Made by a program: the position numbers and the translations under genes. From Oligoflexia bacterium (GTDB lineage: Bacteria > Bdellovibrionota > UBA1018): a stretch of DNA of 64,000 nucleotides. The notes beneath the pieces were generated by a model that was not told where the DNA came from, did no database searches, and saw only the letters and a list, made by a program, of their open reading frames with translations. This document shows, one piece after another, positions 3,072 to 13,370 of the stretch; positions within the stretch are counted from its first letter, which is position 1; each line of letters opens with the position of its first letter. The DNA is taken from the NCBI GenBank assembly GCA_903935335.1, contig CAIZRG010000017.1, positions 62,001-126,000 of the forward strand, in the 5' to 3' direction.

Positions 3072-4484
3072 TTATTTAATAATTTTAGAAATTTGACTTT
3101 TACTGCTTTTTAAAAAAGCAACCATATCACTGGACTCATCTTCTAAGCAGGGCGTAAAAAAAGCTCCCTCCTGAGTCAATTGCTCTTTTTGAGCATCAGT
3201 AAGCCCCCCCTTAACTTTCGCCATCAAAAAATCCCCCTTAGCTTTTTTTAGGTCTTCAAGCAAAGGAATGAAGTCTTGAAAGTTTTCTCTGATTTTCCTG
3301 AAAAACTCAGCGTCAGTGGTATTGGACAAACCAAAAAGACCCGAATCACTAAAATCTGTTGTAAACACTTTATTCACAGCAACCCAAGCTGCACCCGAAG
3401 GATATTGCTGTAGAACTGAAGCTTTTATTTTTTTTAGTAATTCTTCTGAAGAGTCACTATTTTCAATGAATCGAACTGAAAAATCATACTTTGTAGGCAA
3501 CCTGACTGCATGAATCGAAAACACCTTGCCTTCTGAACTTTGAAGCTTCATCAAAGCATCTTCGTAATCTGGAGCTGAAACCCATTGAACAGGACCTTGA
3601 TAACGACTATAAATTTTTGGATCAACTCGAAAAATTTCGTCTTTTTTAAAAAAAGATTCTTTATAGAAAATTTCTAAAAAATCTGAAACTTTATTGACGG
3701 CAGTCGGCCGAGACTGAACCTCAATAATTTTAATACGAGGATACTGAGCAAAAACACTGTTTACCTCGTCTAAGTATTTTGTTGGAGACAAGATAGCTTG
3801 AATCGAAGAATAAGGAAAAGAAAGTTGAGTTTTAATTTCTACAATGGCATTTGTTTTTTTGATCTGACTATTAGATAGAAATGCTTCATCTAAACAACGA
3901 CCTCTCCCTTGATAAAGACCATCGTTATGCCCTATACTATAAAGACTATAAAATGCTAAAGAAGTTCCAGGTAACATCTCCATTTTCTGGAAAATTTCAC
4001 TCTCATCAATCTCTTTTTGAGTCAGCTTTCTCAGCTCTTGAGGAGGAGTTAGAATAAAAACTAGGGTACTGGATAAACGATCTGAAAACTCTTGAAGACC
4101 GGCTGCCTGGTCTTTTGCATTTCCTAATGCATTCAATGGGGAATGCAATGGCCAAACTCTTTCGTGTGCAATACCAAAAATTCCACGAGTCTCTTCAAAA
4201 ACAGCAATATGAACAGCATCCCTGACTTCCTCTTCAGTCCTAGACTCAAGATTAACATAATTGACACTGATCTCAGGCGCTTTTAAACTTGTACCCAGGA
4301 TAAAAACAGGACTAACTCGATCCTGTGCTTTTTTGGAGAGTAAATGATAAGGCTGAATCCCGTAGGTTGAAATGCTTTGAATTATTTTTCTAGCTTCATC
4401 TTCAGAAACTCCAGAAAAAGTTAAAGTAGGATTCACTAAAAAAGAAAAATAAAGACCAAAACATAAAAAATAAAATTTTTTCAA
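3072..4484 (-). CDS. Secreted protein of unknown function (470 aa)
   Basis: I do not recognise this protein. It begins with a TTG codon preceded by AGGTGA. The first ~25 residues are a Sec-type signal (MKKFYFLCFGLYF... ending near FSG), so export is likely. The rest is a soluble mixed alpha/beta sequence with few Cys residues and no membrane helix, repeats or catalytic motif I can name. The C-terminal ~60 residues are Lys-rich and helical. It is transcribed divergently from the antiporter-like gene at 4646. The coding status is well supported by length and codon pattern. The function is open. Confidence 0.75.
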   Translation of the reverse strand: MKKFYFLCFGLYFSFLVNPTLTFSGVSEDEARKIIQSISTYGIQPYHLLSKKAQDRVSPVFILGTSLKAPEISVNYVNLESRTEEEVRDAVHIAVFEETRGIFGIAHERVWPLHSPLNALGNAKDQAAGLQEFSDRLSSTLVFILTPPQELRKLTQKEIDESEIFQKMEMLPGTSLAFYSLYSIGHNDGLYQGRGRCLDEAFLSNSQIKKTNAIVEIKTQLSFPYSSIQAILSPTKYLDEVNSVFAQYPRIKIIEVQSRPTAVNKVSDFLEIFYKESFFKKDEIFRVDPKIYSRYQGPVQWVSAPDYEDALMKLQSSEGKVFSIHAVRLPTKYDFSVRFIENSDSSEELLKKIKASVLQQYPSGAAWVAVNKVFTTDFSDSGLFGLSNTTDAEFFRKIRENFQDFIPLLEDLKKAKGDFLMAKVKGGLTDAQKEQLTQEGAFFTPCLEDESSDMVAFLKSSKSQISKIIK

Positions 4485-5925: not shown

Positions 5926-8070
5926 TTAAAACTTTACTATCCACTTTCTGAGCAAGATATCCTGTTTTTGGCGAACCCGTTTATTCCATGAATCAGCCTG
6001 AGTCTCAAGACTTTGAGGCAACTCCTCCAATCTATTGAACGCCTTGCGTTTCCCAGGTGAAAGACATAAGATTGCAAAAATAAGACGCTTACCCGAAAGA
6101 GGATAAAGATATCCTGCAATCGCAGTCACATAAAACAGACTTCCCGTTTTTGCCCAAACTCGAAATTGAGCCTCTGGATGGCTCAGTCGACTCGACAAAG
6201 TCCCCTTCCATCCTGCAATCGGCAACAGAGATTCATAACTCCGATTATCAAAACGAAAAGGATCTATATATTCAAGAATGGATACTAATTGCTGAGCCGT
6301 TATTCGATGCATTGGGCTCAGACCTGATCCATTAACGAGCTCAAGAGAATCCCATGAAGATGAAACCACCTCTTGAGTGAGCCATTTTTTTAAAATCTGG
6401 GCTGCTTTTTCAAGAGTCACTGCTTGCCCTTCGATTTGACGAGCGGCTGCTAGGAGGATCAACTCAGCCATGAGATTATTACTGTACTCAAGCGCTCTTT
6501 CAACTAAATCAAGTAACGGAGGACTCTGATGGACACCTAAAATCTTGACGTTTTTAGGCATCATTTGAGACTGAGGACTTGAGAGCAAAATCCCATTCAT
6601 TCGACAAAACTGAGAAAATAAAAGTGCGGCCCTAAAACTAGGATGTCTGATGGGTATCCTTTTTTCGCCATGTGAACTGATCGATGAAGAAAAAAGCCAC
6701 TTCTCCTTCACCTGATCTTGGGAATCATCTTGCAACTCCTCTTGTAAGGAAACAATTTCATCACTTTTTTGACCCCTCTTTGGGTCAGTAAAAAACCCTA
6801 ACTCAACCAAAGGAAAATCAGGGGTTACTTTAACATCCAAAATAGACTGAGTTTTTAAATTGGGACTCCATTGAAGTAAAAGCTGATTAAAATCTACTGA
6901 AAGTGCTCCCACCCCTGGATTATGCGCAGCTGCCTTATCCCCATCTAATCGAATCATCGACTGAGAAAGAACCTCAGACTCATCGTAGTAAAAGTTTCCA
7001 ATCACTTTCTGAATTCCATGATCGGACAAACTTCTCATTAAGCTCCATAGATGCGAAGCAAACAGACTCGGATCACCACTGCCTTTTAAGTAAAGATCAC
7101 CCACCAAGGTATTTTTTTTTATTTCCCCTGAGTAAGCAACTTGGGTTCTAAATCTAAACTGAGGGCCTAGGATTTTTAATGCGGCAACTGTTGTCAGTAT
7201 CTTTGTCGTTGAAGCTGGAATAAATGACTGGTTTTCAGCCCGATGATCTAAAATTCGACGAGTGCTTGGATCATACAAAAGATAGGCAACTTCTCCTTGA
7301 GGAATCTTTAAGTTGAATTTTTCAAGATCTTCCTGAATTTCATGAAAATACTCCTGATCCTCAAGAGTCAGTCGGCGAACCTGATCCCTCTTTTCAACTG
7401 GATCAACCCTGTTCGGACTGCTTTGACACGACACGAGAAAAGGAACCAGAACTAAGATAAAATGAAATACAATCTTCCCGAAAAATCTCCAGGGTAAAGC
7501 AGCATCAGCACCCGCATACTGAACTCCAATCCTTGGACCCGTTCGAACCTCTCCACAAGAGGGTGGACTACCCGACTCTAGCCAAATCCCTAATTCAGGC
7601 TGAAGAGGAAGACCATTATGAGAAGAATGAACCCCCAAACCTTGTGCTACTTTCGCAGGCCCTTGAAGCCACTTTTCTAGGCAAGTAGGTGGGTAACGTA
7701 ATTTTTTAAAATTTCGATTTTCCCGGATCCTCTCTAACCCCTCGAGAGGAATCGCCCCCCGGACCATCACCGCCTCCCCCACACCCTCTTTCCCAGTTAC
7801 AAAGTTGAGAATCCAGTGCATTCCATAAACGAAATACACATAACTGACCCCACCTGCTTCAAACATCACACGATTGCGAACTGTCTTCCGACCACCAAAG
7901 GCATGGCAAGCTCGTTCATGCTGATGATAGGCTTCAACATCACAAAGCCGTACCCGCAAGACCTCTCCTTGCACTTGAACACAAAGATCCCGACCCACTA
8001 AATCAGGAGCAACCTCAAGGGCAGGTCTTCTAAAGAATTGAATCTGAAGGATTGAAGAAGCCATAAACAC
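5926..8070 (-). CDS. 3-methyladenine DNA glycosylase fused to D-Ala-D-Ala carboxypeptidase (DacB/PBP4 type)
   Basis: A single open frame of 714 codons. Residues 1-196 are an MPG/AAG-type glycosylase that excises alkylated bases: VEAY (catalytic Glu46, Tyr48), ACHAF (His56), RNRVMF, YVYFVYGMH, and the usual C-terminal IGVQYAGADAALPWRF. A hydrophobic segment (about 200-214) with a lipobox-like LVSC follows. The rest is an S13 peptidase with SxxK (Ser287-Lys290), SNN (530-532) and KTG (641-643), a PBP4-type enzyme trimming peptidoglycan in the periplasm. No ATG, GTG or TTG in frame would give a separate peptidase its signal; only an unusual ATT could. A cytoplasmic glycosylase, one membrane helix and a periplasmic peptidase is topologically possible. 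ATG at 8064 is an alternative to GTG 8070. Confidence 0.88.
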   Translation of the reverse strand: MFMASSILQIQFFRRPALEVAPDLVGRDLCVQVQGEVLRVRLCDVEAYHQHERACHAFGGRKTVRNRVMFEAGGVSYVYFVYGMHWILNFVTGKEGVGEAVMVRGAIPLEGLERIRENRNFKKLRYPPTCLEKWLQGPAKVAQGLGVHSSHNGLPLQPELGIWLESGSPPSCGEVRTGPRIGVQYAGADAALPWRFFGKIVFHFILVLVPFLVSCQSSPNRVDPVEKRDQVRRLTLEDQEYFHEIQEDLEKFNLKIPQGEVAYLLYDPSTRRILDHRAENQSFIPASTTKILTTVAALKILGPQFRFRTQVAYSGEIKKNTLVGDLYLKGSGDPSLFASHLWSLMRSLSDHGIQKVIGNFYYDESEVLSQSMIRLDGDKAAAHNPGVGALSVDFNQLLLQWSPNLKTQSILDVKVTPDFPLVELGFFTDPKRGQKSDEIVSLQEELQDDSQDQVKEKWLFSSSISSHGEKRIPIRHPSFRAALLFSQFCRMNGILLSSPQSQMMPKNVKILGVHQSPPLLDLVERALEYSNNLMAELILLAAARQIEGQAVTLEKAAQILKKWLTQEVVSSSWDSLELVNGSGLSPMHRITAQQLVSILEYIDPFRFDNRSYESLLPIAGWKGTLSSRLSHPEAQFRVWAKTGSLFYVTAIAGYLYPLSGKRLIFAILCLSPGKRKAFNRLEELPQSLETQADSWNKRVRQKQDILLRKWIVKF

Positions 8071-8141: not shown

Positions 8142-8969
8142 ATGATGAACACATTACAAAATGTGCCTGTATTTATTTTGGCTGGAGGTCTGGGTACGCG
8201 AATCTCAGAAGAAACACATCTTAAGCCTAAACCCATGATTGAAATAGGTGAACTTCCAATTTTAGTCCATATCATGCGATGGTACTATTCACACGGCTTT
8301 ACGGACTTTGTGATCTGTGCAGGATATAAGTCATGGGAAATTAAGCAGTATTTTCTGAACTACGAGTTTAGATCAAATCACCTCCTCATTGACCACCGAA
8401 ATTCTCCTCACACCCCACCCATGGCTCTGGGTCAAAACTCAGGTCAGGAGCGTTGGCGGATTCGTATCATTGATACAGGTATCGAAAGCATGACTGGCAG
8501 TCGAATTGCCAGGGCATTTGACGAAATTTCTAAAACAGATTCCTTTTCTACATTTGCAGTCACCTATGGAGACGGCTTATCTGACACGAACCTCACTGAA
8601 GAATTCAAGTTTCATCAAAACCACGAAAAAATTGGAACTGTTCTCGGCGTTATTCCATTCGCCCGATTTGGGGAACTAGACACTAACTCTACAGGTTGCG
8701 TAGAAGGATTTTTAGAAAAACCAGAATCTAAACAAGGACGAATCAATGGAGGATTCTTCTTTTTTAAACGTGAATTCAGAGAATACCTGGACAACCATCC
8801 TCAGTGCATCATGGAGAGAAATCCTCTCGAAAAACTCGCGAAAGACTATCAACTCATGGAATTTAAGCACTCAGGGTTTTGGCAACCGATGGATACTCTT
8901 CGAGACAAGAATATGCTTCAGTCCCTTTGGGAAAGTGGAAATGCCCCATGGATCCCAAAAAAAACCTGA
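8142..8969 (+). CDS. rfbF: Glucose-1-phosphate cytidylyltransferase
   Basis: Makes CDP-glucose from CTP and glucose 1-phosphate, the first step to CDP-linked 3,6-dideoxyhexoses. The N-terminus has the nucleotidyltransferase signature GGLGTRISEETHLKPKPM. It continues with the RfbF-type features VICAGYKSWEIKQYF, VTYGDGLSDTNL and FWQPMDTLRDK. Length (275) is close to the family's ~257. Two adjacent ATGs (8142, 8145) can serve as start. The gene is convergent with the GT2 gene and divergent from the glycosylase-DacB fusion. The following enzymes of the pathway (CDP-glucose 4,6-dehydratase and the E1/E3 reductases) are not in this window. Confidence 0.9.
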   Translation: MMNTLQNVPVFILAGGLGTRISEETHLKPKPMIEIGELPILVHIMRWYYSHGFTDFVICAGYKSWEIKQYFLNYEFRSNHLLIDHRNSPHTPPMALGQNSGQERWRIRIIDTGIESMTGSRIARAFDEISKTDSFSTFAVTYGDGLSDTNLTEEFKFHQNHEKIGTVLGVIPFARFGELDTNSTGCVEGFLEKPESKQGRINGGFFFFKREFREYLDNHPQCIMERNPLEKLAKDYQLMEFKHSGFWQPMDTLRDKNMLQSLWESGNAPWIPKKT

Positions 8970-9011
8970 GCGCACCACTTACAAAAGTTTAATGGGAAAT
9001 TCCTTAAAAAA

Positions 9012-9704
9012 TTATATTGATATTCTAAGTTTAATAATTGTGAATAAATAGGTAAATACAAATTTGATAAGATTCCTTTTTGTTTCACCAAACATTCTCT
9101 GTTTAAAGGAAAATGGAATTTCTTTCACTTTCATAGCTGGATGAAGACGATGCAACTTAAAAAGAATTTCTTCAATAATATCAAAATTGTGACACTTAAG
9201 ATGAAGCTCCTTCATCCAATCTGATCTGTAAACTTTGTAACTATTTGAAATATCCTTGTAATTAAGATCAAGGACGAGTCTGTAAGTGAAGTTTAAAATA
9301 CGACTCATGCAAATAAGTAAAAAACTATTATCTGTGTGCCCACCTGGAACGTAACGTGACGCAATAACAACATCGCAGGAAGAAACCTCAGCTAACATCT
9401 TAGGGATGAACTCAGGAGAATGTGATCCATCAGCATCCATAAAAAGAAACCATTTCCCTTTTCCTGCCTGAATTCCAGTTCGAACAGCATCTCCAAAAGA
9501 TGACCCAGGACCCCTCCTCACACAAATGGCTCCAAAATCTTTTGAAACCTCCTCCGTTCGATCCAGAGGTTCAGGAGTATCGATAATGAGTATTTCACAA
9601 GAAAACGAAAGATTTTCAAGAGTTTTTTTAATTCTAGGAAGAATAATTCTTAGGTTCTCTTCCTCCATATACGAAGGAAGGATAAGACTAAAATCAATAG
9701 ACAT
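9012..9704 (-). CDS. Family 2 glycosyltransferase (polyprenyl/dolichyl-phosphate sugar synthase type)
   Basis: About 230 residues with a GT-A fold. The N-terminus is SLILPSYMEEENL, followed by EILIIDTPEPLDRT, then GPGSSFGDAVRTGIQAGKG and the metal-binding DADGSHSPEF. This order matches DPM1/ArnC-like enzymes that load a sugar onto a polyprenyl phosphate or onto a glycolipid. There are no C-terminal membrane helices. The ATG at 9704 shares one base with the TAA stop of the upstream epimerase gene (TAATG), so translational coupling favours this start over the ATG at 9713. It is part of a three-gene minus-strand operon with both epimerases. Confidence 0.87.
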   Translation of the reverse strand: MSIDFSLILPSYMEEENLRIILPRIKKTLENLSFSCEILIIDTPEPLDRTEEVSKDFGAICVRRGPGSSFGDAVRTGIQAGKGKWFLFMDADGSHSPEFIPKMLAEVSSCDVVIASRYVPGGHTDNSFLLICMSRILNFTYRLVLDLNYKDISNSYKVYRSDWMKELHLKCHNFDIIEEILFKLHRLHPAMKVKEIPFSFKQRMFGETKRNLIKFVFTYLFTIIKLRISI

Positions 9705-10726
9705 TAAATACACTCCCTTACCCAGTGAATCATATTTAGAAGACCTTCATTTTTTCCAATTTTTGGTTTCCAATCTAACAATTGTTTTGCTTTTTCAATA
9801 TTTGCCACAAATACTTTTTGATCACTTTGTCGCCAAGGCAATTGAGTATAAGACAACTGAATAGACAGTTCATGCTCAAGAAATTTAAAAAGCTCAAGAA
9901 GAGATAGACTATTTTCTATTCCTCCTCCAATATTAAAAACTTGTCCTTTTACAGAATCAATCTTTTCAACAGCAGACAAATAACAGTTCACTAAGTCACT
10001 TGAAAAAAGTACATCTCGAACCTGCTTTCCTGTTCCAGAAATCGTAAAAGAATCACCACTTCGAAGCTTTTGCTGGCTCAATGCCTTCTGCACAAACCAC
10101 CCAACCCATCCTTGATCAAAAGTACTAAACTGACGACCGCCAAAAATTGAAGAATGCCTAAAAACAACGGTTCTTAAACCAAATAAACGGCTAAAATCTA
10201 ACATATATTGATCAATTGCTCCTTTTGAGCAACCATAAGGACTTCGAAAATCTAAACCCATAGATTCATCAAAACCCTGCTCATAACCCCTAGCCCTATA
10301 GCGAGTTGAAGTTTCAATGTATTCCAAGTAATCTAAATCACCATAAACTTTATTTGTTGATGAATAAATAAGAATAGTTTCTGGTAAATTTTTTCTTACG
10401 ACCTCTAAAACATTGTTTCCTCCTATAACGTTAGTTTCAAAATCCAGTCGTGGATTATCAATTGAAGTGGTCATCGCAACTTGCCCAGCAAAATGAAAAA
10501 TCACTTGAGGACGACTCAAAAGTAATGCACGATCAACGTCATGGTATGAACGGATATCAGATTGAAAAAAATGCAATGAACCCAAAGTCTTAAGCCATTT
10601 TAAATTCTCTACACTTCCTTGACGTGTTAAATTATCAAAAAGAAAAACTTCTTCTCCTCTTTTAATCAACTCAGCAGCCAAGTTGGAACCTAAAAATCCA
10701 CATCCACCTGTAATAAAATATTTCAT
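9704..10726 (-). CDS. NAD-dependent epimerase, CDP-paratose 2-epimerase-like
   Basis: 340 residues, extended short-chain dehydrogenase fold. NAD-binding GGCGFLGSN is at the N-terminus. YSSTNKVYGD supplies the catalytic Ser/Thr. YGCSKGAIDQY carries the Tyr-x3-Lys pair. The combination of that motif with RHSSIFGGRQFSTFDQGWVGWF is characteristic of RfbE/Tyv-type CDP-paratose 2-epimerases, which make CDP-tyvelose, and separates it from UDP-glucose 4-epimerases. The start ATG overlaps the stop of the upstream gene by four bases (ATGA). With rfbF nearby, a CDP-deoxysugar role is likely, but the exact product is an inference. Confidence 0.85.
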   Translation of the reverse strand: MKYFITGGCGFLGSNLAAELIKRGEEVFLFDNLTRQGSVENLKWLKTLGSLHFFQSDIRSYHDVDRALLLSRPQVIFHFAGQVAMTTSIDNPRLDFETNVIGGNNVLEVVRKNLPETILIYSSTNKVYGDLDYLEYIETSTRYRARGYEQGFDESMGLDFRSPYGCSKGAIDQYMLDFSRLFGLRTVVFRHSSIFGGRQFSTFDQGWVGWFVQKALSQQKLRSGDSFTISGTGKQVRDVLFSSDLVNCYLSAVEKIDSVKGQVFNIGGGIENSLSLLELFKFLEHELSIQLSYTQLPWRQSDQKVFVANIEKAKQLLDWKPKIGKNEGLLNMIHWVRECI

Positions 10727-11622
10727 AATTTCAAACTTAACCTCTCCGATTCAATTGTTTTTCGAAGACCTTCCTCCAAGGAAACCCTGGGCCTCCAACC
10801 CAACTGGGACAAGAGAGAAGCATCAAGTTTAGACTCCATAATTTCATGATCACGGTAAGGTAATCCTCCAAACTCGAATCGAGTGACAGTATTATGAGTC
10901 ATTTTTTTCACAAGCTCTACAAAATCACGAATTTTAACAGGCTTACAACTTCCTACTTCAAATTGAGTAAAACCTGCCTTCATTGCAAGAGCGGATTCAA
11001 TGACTCTATCAAAGGCAAGAACAACATCTTCAATATGAATAAAATCTCTTTTCTGTTCTCCTGGGGTAAGCGATATGGCTTCTACTCGACGAAGAGATTG
11101 ATGAATCAACTTTGTCACAAACTTTGAAGAATCGTCTCCAAATCCATAAAAATGATCTAACACGACATTAACACATGTTAAATGATTAGAAAATTCTTTA
11201 AACCACTCTGTAAAAGTCTTTTTAGAATGAGCATATAAGCTAATCTTTCGATCTAAAACAGTATCTGTATTGATAAAGATTTGAACATTAAAATTTTTAG
11301 CTTGTTCCAATAAAAAAAGAGGGAAAATAAGATTCGTTTCAAGAACCTGACATATTGTTTCAGATCCTCTTCCATAGCTCGTAGCACAGTGAAGAATAGC
11401 ATGAATTTGATTTTCTTGAAATACACGGGAAACTTCATCCTTACCACAGTCAATATTATACATCGAAATATTATCTAAAACTTTATGAAGACTGGAGAAA
11501 TCAGAAGTCTTTCTCTTCAAGAGAAGAATTTTATAATTCTTGTGAACGAGGTGTTGTACAATGCGACTTCCTAAAAATCCAGTACCCCCTGTAACAAGAA
11601 CGTTTTTTTTACCTGCTAACAA
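10723..11622 (-). CDS. NAD(P)-dependent sugar epimerase/reductase (possible CDP-deoxyhexose synthase)
   Basis: 299 residues. The N-terminal GGTGFLGSR is a Rossmann dinucleotide site. INTDT and YAHSK give the Thr and Tyr-x3-Lys catalytic set of the extended short-chain dehydrogenases. KRDFIHIEDVVLAF is the usual conserved segment before the sugar-binding part. It may be the reductase that makes CDP-abequose or CDP-paratose (RfbJ/RfbS type), which would feed the epimerase encoded downstream, but the sequence does not distinguish this from other nucleotide-sugar reductases. It is the first gene of the minus-strand operon and overlaps the next by four bases. Confidence 0.8.
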   Translation of the reverse strand: MLAGKKNVLVTGGTGFLGSRIVQHLVHKNYKILLLKRKTSDFSSLHKVLDNISMYNIDCGKDEVSRVFQENQIHAILHCATSYGRGSETICQVLETNLIFPLFLLEQAKNFNVQIFINTDTVLDRKISLYAHSKKTFTEWFKEFSNHLTCVNVVLDHFYGFGDDSSKFVTKLIHQSLRRVEAISLTPGEQKRDFIHIEDVVLAFDRVIESALAMKAGFTQFEVGSCKPVKIRDFVELVKKMTHNTVTRFEFGGLPYRDHEIMESKLDASLLSQLGWRPRVSLEEGLRKTIESERLSLKL

Positions 11623-11666
11623 AATAAATCCATCTCCTTCAAAAAAAGGTTTATCTCATCAAGCCA

Positions 11667-13370
11667 CTACTTATGAATCTTTACCTTCAAAAAGTAGGGC
11701 ATTTTATAGGCAGAATGTGCCAAGTAGGCAACAAACCCAAGCCCATCATATTTAAATCGAATGCTTGCCGACTCCCCTCTCATATTTAAAATTCCATCAT
11801 CCATCCACCAACGAAGAAACCGTTTAGACTGGCTACCAGAAATTTCCCCATTAGAATGAAAATAAAGCTCTTCGTCAAGGCTATAAGGCAAAAAAGCTCT
11901 ATTACCCACTCTCCATTCAACGACATGTGCCGAGAATTCGGTCATTGCTCGAAGAGAGGGTGGAAAGCAAATTTTTAAAAAGATAACAAGAACAGGAAGT
12001 GAAATAATGACAGCAGAGCCTAGTAAAAGAGTTTTTAAAACTCTTTTATGACTGATGTAAGTATCAAAATTAATTTTTCCAAGGCAGTGCCTCAAAAATT
12101 GATTTTTGAGGGATAAATAACTGGATTTCGAGCTAAAAGCATTTCTTGAAATACTACAGGATAGTTTCCCCTGTTTCCATTCTTGGTAAAATTCTAAAAT
12201 TAAAATAATAACTATTAAAAAAATAAAAATTTGAGGTAAAGCATAAGTTCTCCCAAAAATTCTTAGATTTTCTTTTGACTGAAAAAAATTACCTGCAACA
12301 AAAAGAGAAAAAGTAAATCCAATCAAAATAGAACCTAAAGTCAAGCTTTTGCCCTTAGGCCAGTGATCCATAAGACAGTAAACAGGAAAAATTAGAAGCA
12401 CTAGATAAGTCATCCAAACAACAGGAGAAAAAACCAGCATAAAAATACTAATCAACGAATAGATAAGTAGAGCATTGCTCTGATAAAAATTTTCTTTTCT
12501 TTTTTTACTATTTCTTAAAAAATAGAGAATTATAAAACAAGAAAGAGTAAAAAAAACACTTGCACATGAAGCCGCAAAATGAATCAATCTATCAAGATTA
12601 AACTGAGTCAGTATCCGAGTTATCACAGCTTGCAAAGCCATGTTATTCGAATCAAAAGGTCCTGCTATAGGATTCTTAACAATCTCTATCCAATGCAAAC
12701 AAAGGCTTCCCAGCTCACTGGGAGAGTAAAAAATCAGAGAAGAAGACGATAAGATTCCAAATAGAACTAAAAAAATTCGGACAGTAGTTAGAAAATTTTG
12801 TAATAGAAACGGCAAAACAAAAAATGCATAATGAGGCTTCAGCATAACTAGGGGTACAAGGAGAGCCACCCCCAACCTGAGTTCTCTTCCTTTCAAACAC
12901 TTCATAGATATGATCAAAATTGTGATAAATATAACGTGAAGGTTGCCAACCATAAAATCTTCATAGACAGAAGGGCTCACGAAAACACTTGCTGCTATTG
13001 CACCAAGAAGGGATCTTGAATGGATCTGTTTTGATGCATGTGAATGAGAGGACAAAAGCAAATAAGGCCAAAGAAAAAAAAGAAAGAGCTTCAAAACAAA
13101 AAAAACAATTTTACAAAGCTTTATGGGTAGAATAGTAAAAAGAAAAAATACCGGACTTCCCAATGGAGGATAGGCATACATTGGAGCCATCTCTGAAAAA
13201 TTATAAATTTCACTTTGAAAGCCTGACTTAAAAAGTTCACCCACGAAATAATAGATATCAAAATCAGCCCCTACAGCCAAATAGGGTTTAAAGCTTTTAA
13301 GCCCCATCAGGGTTACAAATGCAAACCATACAAAACTCAAAGCAAGAAATGTTTTACTAGACTGAGACAC
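11667..13370 (-). CDS. GT87-like (DUF2029) membrane glycosyltransferase with soluble C-terminal region
   Basis: 567 residues. The first ~400 contain about ten membrane helices. Early loop residues VGADFDIYYFVGELF and MYAYPPLGSPVFF fit the GT-C fold of GT87 polyprenyl-phosphomannose-dependent transferases, where an Asp in the first extracytoplasmic loop is catalytic. Between about 410 and 470 is a basic linker and a further helix. The last ~95 residues look like a periplasmic beta-rich domain (WRVGNRAFLPYSLDEELYF and onward) that I do not recognise. It probably adds a sugar to a lipid-linked glycan on the periplasmic face. It lies upstream of the epimerase operon on the same strand. Confidence 0.75.
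   Translation of the reverse strand: MSQSSKTFLALSFVWFAFVTLMGLKSFKPYLAVGADFDIYYFVGELFKSGFQSEIYNFSEMAPMYAYPPLGSPVFFLFTILPIKLCKIVFFVLKLFLFFLWPYLLLSSHSHASKQIHSRSLLGAIAASVFVSPSVYEDFMVGNLHVIFITILIISMKCLKGRELRLGVALLVPLVMLKPHYAFFVLPFLLQNFLTTVRIFLVLFGILSSSSLIFYSPSELGSLCLHWIEIVKNPIAGPFDSNNMALQAVITRILTQFNLDRLIHFAASCASVFFTLSCFIILYFLRNSKKRKENFYQSNALLIYSLISIFMLVFSPVVWMTYLVLLIFPVYCLMDHWPKGKSLTLGSILIGFTFSLFVAGNFFQSKENLRIFGRTYALPQIFIFLIVIILILEFYQEWKQGKLSCSISRNAFSSKSSYLSLKNQFLRHCLGKINFDTYISHKRVLKTLLLGSAVIISLPVLVIFLKICFPPSLRAMTEFSAHVVEWRVGNRAFLPYSLDEELYFHSNGEISGSQSKRFLRWWMDDGILNMRGESASIRFKYDGLGFVAYLAHSAYKMPYFLKVKIHK

Follow-up and report, generated by a model that had tools for sequence, protein, structure and literature searches.

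Results

Within the window, the 64,000-nucleotide stretch of DNA from an Oligoflexia bacterium analysed here, positions 5926-8070 of the minus strand form a single uninterrupted frame of 714 codons. It opens with a GTG, and the ATG at codon 3 (8064-8062) is an equally possible start. The frame encodes a complete MPG/AAG DNA glycosylase, a hydrophobic helix with a lipobox and a complete S13 peptidase, an arrangement proposed in a preliminary description of this DNA and confirmed by Pfam, NCBIfam and hydropathy. The positions given there for Glu46, His56, S287-T-T-K290, S530-N-N, K641-T-G and Cys215 are exact, and the expected masses need only small adjustment: the whole product is predicted at 80.7 kDa rather than about 78 kDa, and the mature peptidase counted from Cys215 at 56.8 kDa rather than about 55 kDa. 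The MPG fragment would have 23.9 kDa.

The MPG/AAG domain covers residues 11-197 (7480-8040, minus strand) and ends in the natural C-terminus LPWRFF. It is matched over the full length of PF02245 (171.2 bits, curated cut-off 27, E = 1.8e-50) and of TIGR00567 (150.9 bits, curated cut-off 116.35), and its sequence aligns end to end with the human AAG structures. The catalytic and conserved residues Glu46 (codon 7933-7935), which lies in the (V/T)EAY motif, and His56 (codon 7903-7905) are present, as are Y48, N89 and R104. The domain thus shares its completeness, the catalytic Glu and the neighbouring residues with known MPG/AAG proteins, but differs from them in that there is no stop at its natural end and the frame runs on into the signal segment and the peptidase.

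The C-terminal part is an S13/PBP4 D,D-carboxypeptidase/endopeptidase domain (residues 260-669; 6064-7293, minus strand). It gives a full-length match to PF02113 (225.2 bits, curated cut-off 22.8, E = 1.7e-66) and matches TIGR00666 at residues 275-668 (206.6 bits, curated cut-off 107.8, E = 5e-61). The motifs STTK (SxxK, 287-290), SNN (SxN, 530-532) and KTG (641-643) occur in this order, and neither a stop nor a frameshift interrupts the roughly 500 codons of this part. It aligns by sequence with PBP4/DacC structures, and a complete domain with SxxK, SxN and KTG is shared with PBP4/DacB (MEROPS S13, TIGR00666; solved structures 2ex2, 3a3d and 1w5d). Unlike PBP4/DacB, the fused peptidase has no start codon of its own, and its signal is internal, behind an enzyme of 197 residues.

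Between the two domains, the hydrophobic core and lipobox of what appears to be a former signal peptide, IVFHFILVLVPFLVS-C215, lie at 7426-7473 (minus strand). Residues 200-214 have a Kyte-Doolittle value of 2.67, well above any other 15-residue stretch of the protein (the peptidase reaches 1.35 at most), and Arg195 and Lys199 precede this core. The lipobox pattern is matched once in the whole protein, by ILVLVPFLVSC, which places Cys215 directly behind the hydrophobic core as in a lipoprotein. Two other lipoprotein features were not found: there is no signal in the first 35-40 or so residues and no basic N-terminal n-region, the Cys being residue 215 with no ATG, GTG or TTG just ahead of the signal. 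As encoded, the fusion is lipoprotein-like in its predicted features.

The nearest orthologues of the peptidase in the same family, in genomes G011 (55% identity) and G012 (37% identity), are separate genes that have a start, a signal and a lipobox of their own (MTSYLSLSKGLLVIVLAIHMVSC in L002 of G011; MKRNRLYWPILLLVVIFIFGC in L003 of G012). They share the type of lipobox with the fusion but differ from it in being free-standing, and no MPG match was found in either genome. The more remote S13 proteins from the phylum that we compared have mostly ordinary signal-like N-termini with no clear lipobox. The free-standing orthologues suggest that the peptidase was probably a lipoprotein before the fusion. 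Because these nearest orthologues carry a normal signal and lipobox, the hydrophobic segment is, to judge from this comparison, an old lipoprotein signal that was cut just inside its n-region.

At the junction (7471-7482, minus strand), Phe197, the last MPG residue, is followed by Gly198-Lys199-Ile200, with neither an MPG stop nor a peptidase start. MPG relatives terminate within a few codons of this same point, for example with LPWRFWLA-stop in L031. Past the end of the MPG core, no ATG, GTG or TTG occurs in frame before the signal core is reached. From the MPG core to Cys215 the only near-start codons in frame are ATT181, ATT200, ATC205, CTG208 and GTG213, the last of which is placed beyond the signal core, and this bears out the earlier remark that no ATG, GTG or TTG would give the peptidase a signal of its own. 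The DNA across the junction has no second copy in the genome, and its contig, 164 kb long, extends far on either side.

The two parts also differ in composition and in ancestry. The GC content is 48.7% in the MPG part, 41.2% in the peptidase part and 40.3% in the window, and GC3 is 38.2% in the MPG part against 34.7% in the peptidase part. The closest MPGs are 50-57% identical and come from freshwater metagenome-assembled genomes labelled mostly Myxococcota. In the tree, the MPG part clusters with Myxococcota MPGs with a support of 100/100. Its own family contributes 12 MPGs, 11 of which make up a supported clade apart from it; the remaining one, L014, is a long row without a placement. Given this affinity outside the own-family clade and the higher GC content, the MPG part was probably acquired by horizontal transfer. 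Its branch to the nearest relatives is 0.71, a divergence which indicates that the donor was not close, and its GC3 falls within the range of the other genes in the window, so that the transfer need not be very recent.

We then looked for the same architecture elsewhere. The fusion is known from one genome assembly, which is 94% complete. Among 369 genomes of the phylum, 120 of which have an MPG, there is no second MPG-S13 fusion; the longest frame around any other MPG in these genomes is 385 amino acids, against 719 at the fusion, and no S13 match in the phylum genomes reaches into the MPG part. An MPG fusion is likewise absent from 52 genomes of the Myxococcota class that holds the nearest MPG, and among 110 loci followed up from a scan of GTDB contigs both domains occur only at the window. 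Taken together, the searches of relatives, of the class and the phylum, of a Myxococcota class, and of GTDB and viral contigs gave no second case, and within this scope the MPG-S13 architecture is confined to one lineage. The search of related genomes proposed in the preliminary description finds the domains separate in all relatives searched, and the observation is a singleton fusion of two known families. In the part of the literature that was covered, we found no report of an MPG-S13 fusion and nothing direct on MPG fusions and internal lipoprotein signals.

A different MPG frame, at L052:1276-4731 (plus strand) in a Myxococcaceae metagenome-assembled genome, runs stop-free into a lipoprotein-like periplasmic substrate-binding protein. 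It was rejected as a second fusion because an ATG and a basic n-region precede the second part and because the frame stays open for 1,150 codons, far upstream as well; we read it as probably a chance effect of GC-rich DNA.

The genome contains one MPG gene and one S13 gene, and no match to an S11 carboxypeptidase was found in it. With a single MPG, a single S13 and no S11, both functions would rest on the fused gene, which is the only source found in this assembly of the predicted activities of these two families. The fused gene stands alone on the minus strand: its upstream neighbour, a nucleotidyltransferase gene, is divergent, and downstream a putative Na+/H+ antiporter gene (PF07399) is convergent and ends 5 bases away. 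Promoter-like sites near the fused gene occur at chance level. Since the gene is isolated on its strand, the peptidase part has no evident transcription except through MPG.

Discussion

The explanation that we consider the most probable, though with some reserve, is that an acquired MPG gene was joined to a lipoprotein dacB gene by loss of a stop and a start, and that the internal signal of the resulting precursor exports the PBP4 domain, with likely cleavage at the lipobox. A horizontally acquired MPG gene would have been inserted immediately upstream of a lipoprotein gene of the dacB type. At the junction, the MPG stop and the dacB start may then have been lost through a small deletion or through recombination, leaving one in-frame gene that would be translated as a single precursor. 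The MPG domain would be complete before the hydrophobic core exits the ribosome and could fold in the cytoplasm. With Arg195 and Lys199 ahead of it, the former signal core, which is now internal, would insert N-in and send the PBP4 domain to the periplasm; that a hydrophobic core of this kind can insert N-in as a signal or anchor follows from general membrane-protein biology. Lgt and signal peptidase II (LspA) would most likely act at Cys215, and cleavage would release the peptidase as a lipoprotein of 56.8 kDa and leave the MPG, at 23.9 kDa, with a short hydrophobic tail. Such a split would nearly restore the two-gene state, which would explain why a fusion that looks disruptive is tolerated. 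Processing by Lgt and LspA is not assured, because Cys215 lies about 200 residues deeper than the corresponding Cys in ordinary lipoproteins. Both parts are presumably active.

Gene fusions that arise by deletion are a source of new bacterial genes (PMC12803068). The fusion described here would belong to the same class of event, two genes joined by loss of intervening DNA, if a deletion took place as we suppose. The fusions examined there in the M. tuberculosis complex have lost catalytic motifs (PMC12803068), whereas the MPG-S13 fusion keeps both domains complete. It is a clean natural case of an in-frame fusion in which a cytoplasmic enzyme, probably acquired horizontally, runs into the signal of a secreted enzyme while both domains stay whole, and it raises the question of whether an internal lipoprotein signal behind a folded domain of 200 residues is still usable by Sec, Lgt and LspA.

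It is rather unlikely that the fusion is instead a stable type II membrane protein, left uncut, with MPG in the cytoplasm, PBP4 in the periplasm and the helix uncleaved, whether or not the tether has a selected role. A single chain is encoded, and the strong hydrophobic segment behind R195 and K199 would suit such a topology, but the well-formed lipobox at the end of the helix is common to the free-standing orthologues, and the fusion is kept in no other genome searched. The preliminary description had offered, as its first reading, a DNA repair enzyme tethered beside cell-wall trimming, and this is unsupported, since no conservation of the architecture was found and cleavage is likely given the lipobox. 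Its second reading, loss of the stop between two neighbouring genes, is favoured by the comparison made here, in which both parts have free-standing orthologues and no other genome searched carries the fusion.

An error of sequencing or assembly is unlikely. In that case the true junction would have a stop, a start or a change of frame, and there would be two separate, perhaps overlapping genes. We tried 555 single-base indels over the final 150 bases of the MPG part, and 135 of them give two overlapping frames. An out-of-frame ATG at 7517 has GGAG 6 bases ahead of it, and its frame would lead into that of the peptidase if one base were altered close to a run of five T; an error would also account for a singleton. 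However, the junction sequence occurs once in the genome and is far from the ends of its 164 kb contig, so that a misjoin at a repeat is less likely, and short-read sequencing seldom misreads a run of five T. Since the ATG at 7517 falls within the stretch that codes for the conserved GVxYAG motif of MPG, its start-like shape is probably due to chance. The frame that it opens (7517-7452, minus strand) has 21 codons and stops within the signal segment, at a TAG; a -1 shift at the five-T run would reach the peptidase frame.

We consider it quite unlikely that the fusion is a self-splitting envelope precursor, with repair enzyme and wall peptidase in one membrane-spanning chain and LspA action at the internal lipobox as its processing step, or else an uncleaved membrane-tethered glycosylase that has a selected role beside wall synthesis. 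A selected tether would be surprising if true, and nothing that we found points there or gives evidence of such a function. A one-off fusion accident, after which both working parts are still made, is most likely, rather than a new linked function.

An independent start of the peptidase at the rare codon ATT200 inside the frame, giving a product of about 57-58 kDa beside the MPG-containing chain, is very unlikely. The suggestion of an ATT start made in the preliminary description is sound in its position, as ATT200 lies exactly ahead of the hydrophobic core with GGGAAG just before it, but it is weak in other respects. The purine run ends right at the codon and is too near to serve as a Shine-Dalgarno sequence, the signal would lose its positive n-region (M-V-F-H-F), and ATT start codons are very rare. 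With no stop between MPG and the peptidase, ribosomes reading MPG would still make the fusion even if ATT200 were used. Finally, it is most improbable that this is a non-functional remnant of a recent fusion, heading for loss, in which one part (most likely the peptidase) no longer reaches the periplasm: its singleton status and altered signal context would fit, but all motifs are intact, the roughly 500 peptidase codons are free of stops and frameshifts, and the peptidase is the only S13 of a genome with no S11 found.

Several features of the surroundings can be added. Positions 8142-13370 of the window encode a nucleotidyltransferase, a family 2 glycosyltransferase, two NAD-dependent epimerases and a GT87 protein, and this content suggests that a surface-polysaccharide cluster adjoins the fusion. 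On the minus strand, 3072-4484 of the window encodes a protein of 470 amino acids whose N-terminus is signal-like and which has no match in Pfam. In G011, the gene that comes after the peptidase orthologue (L002:2294-3748, minus strand) is convergent with it and codes for a long ankyrin-repeat-like protein.
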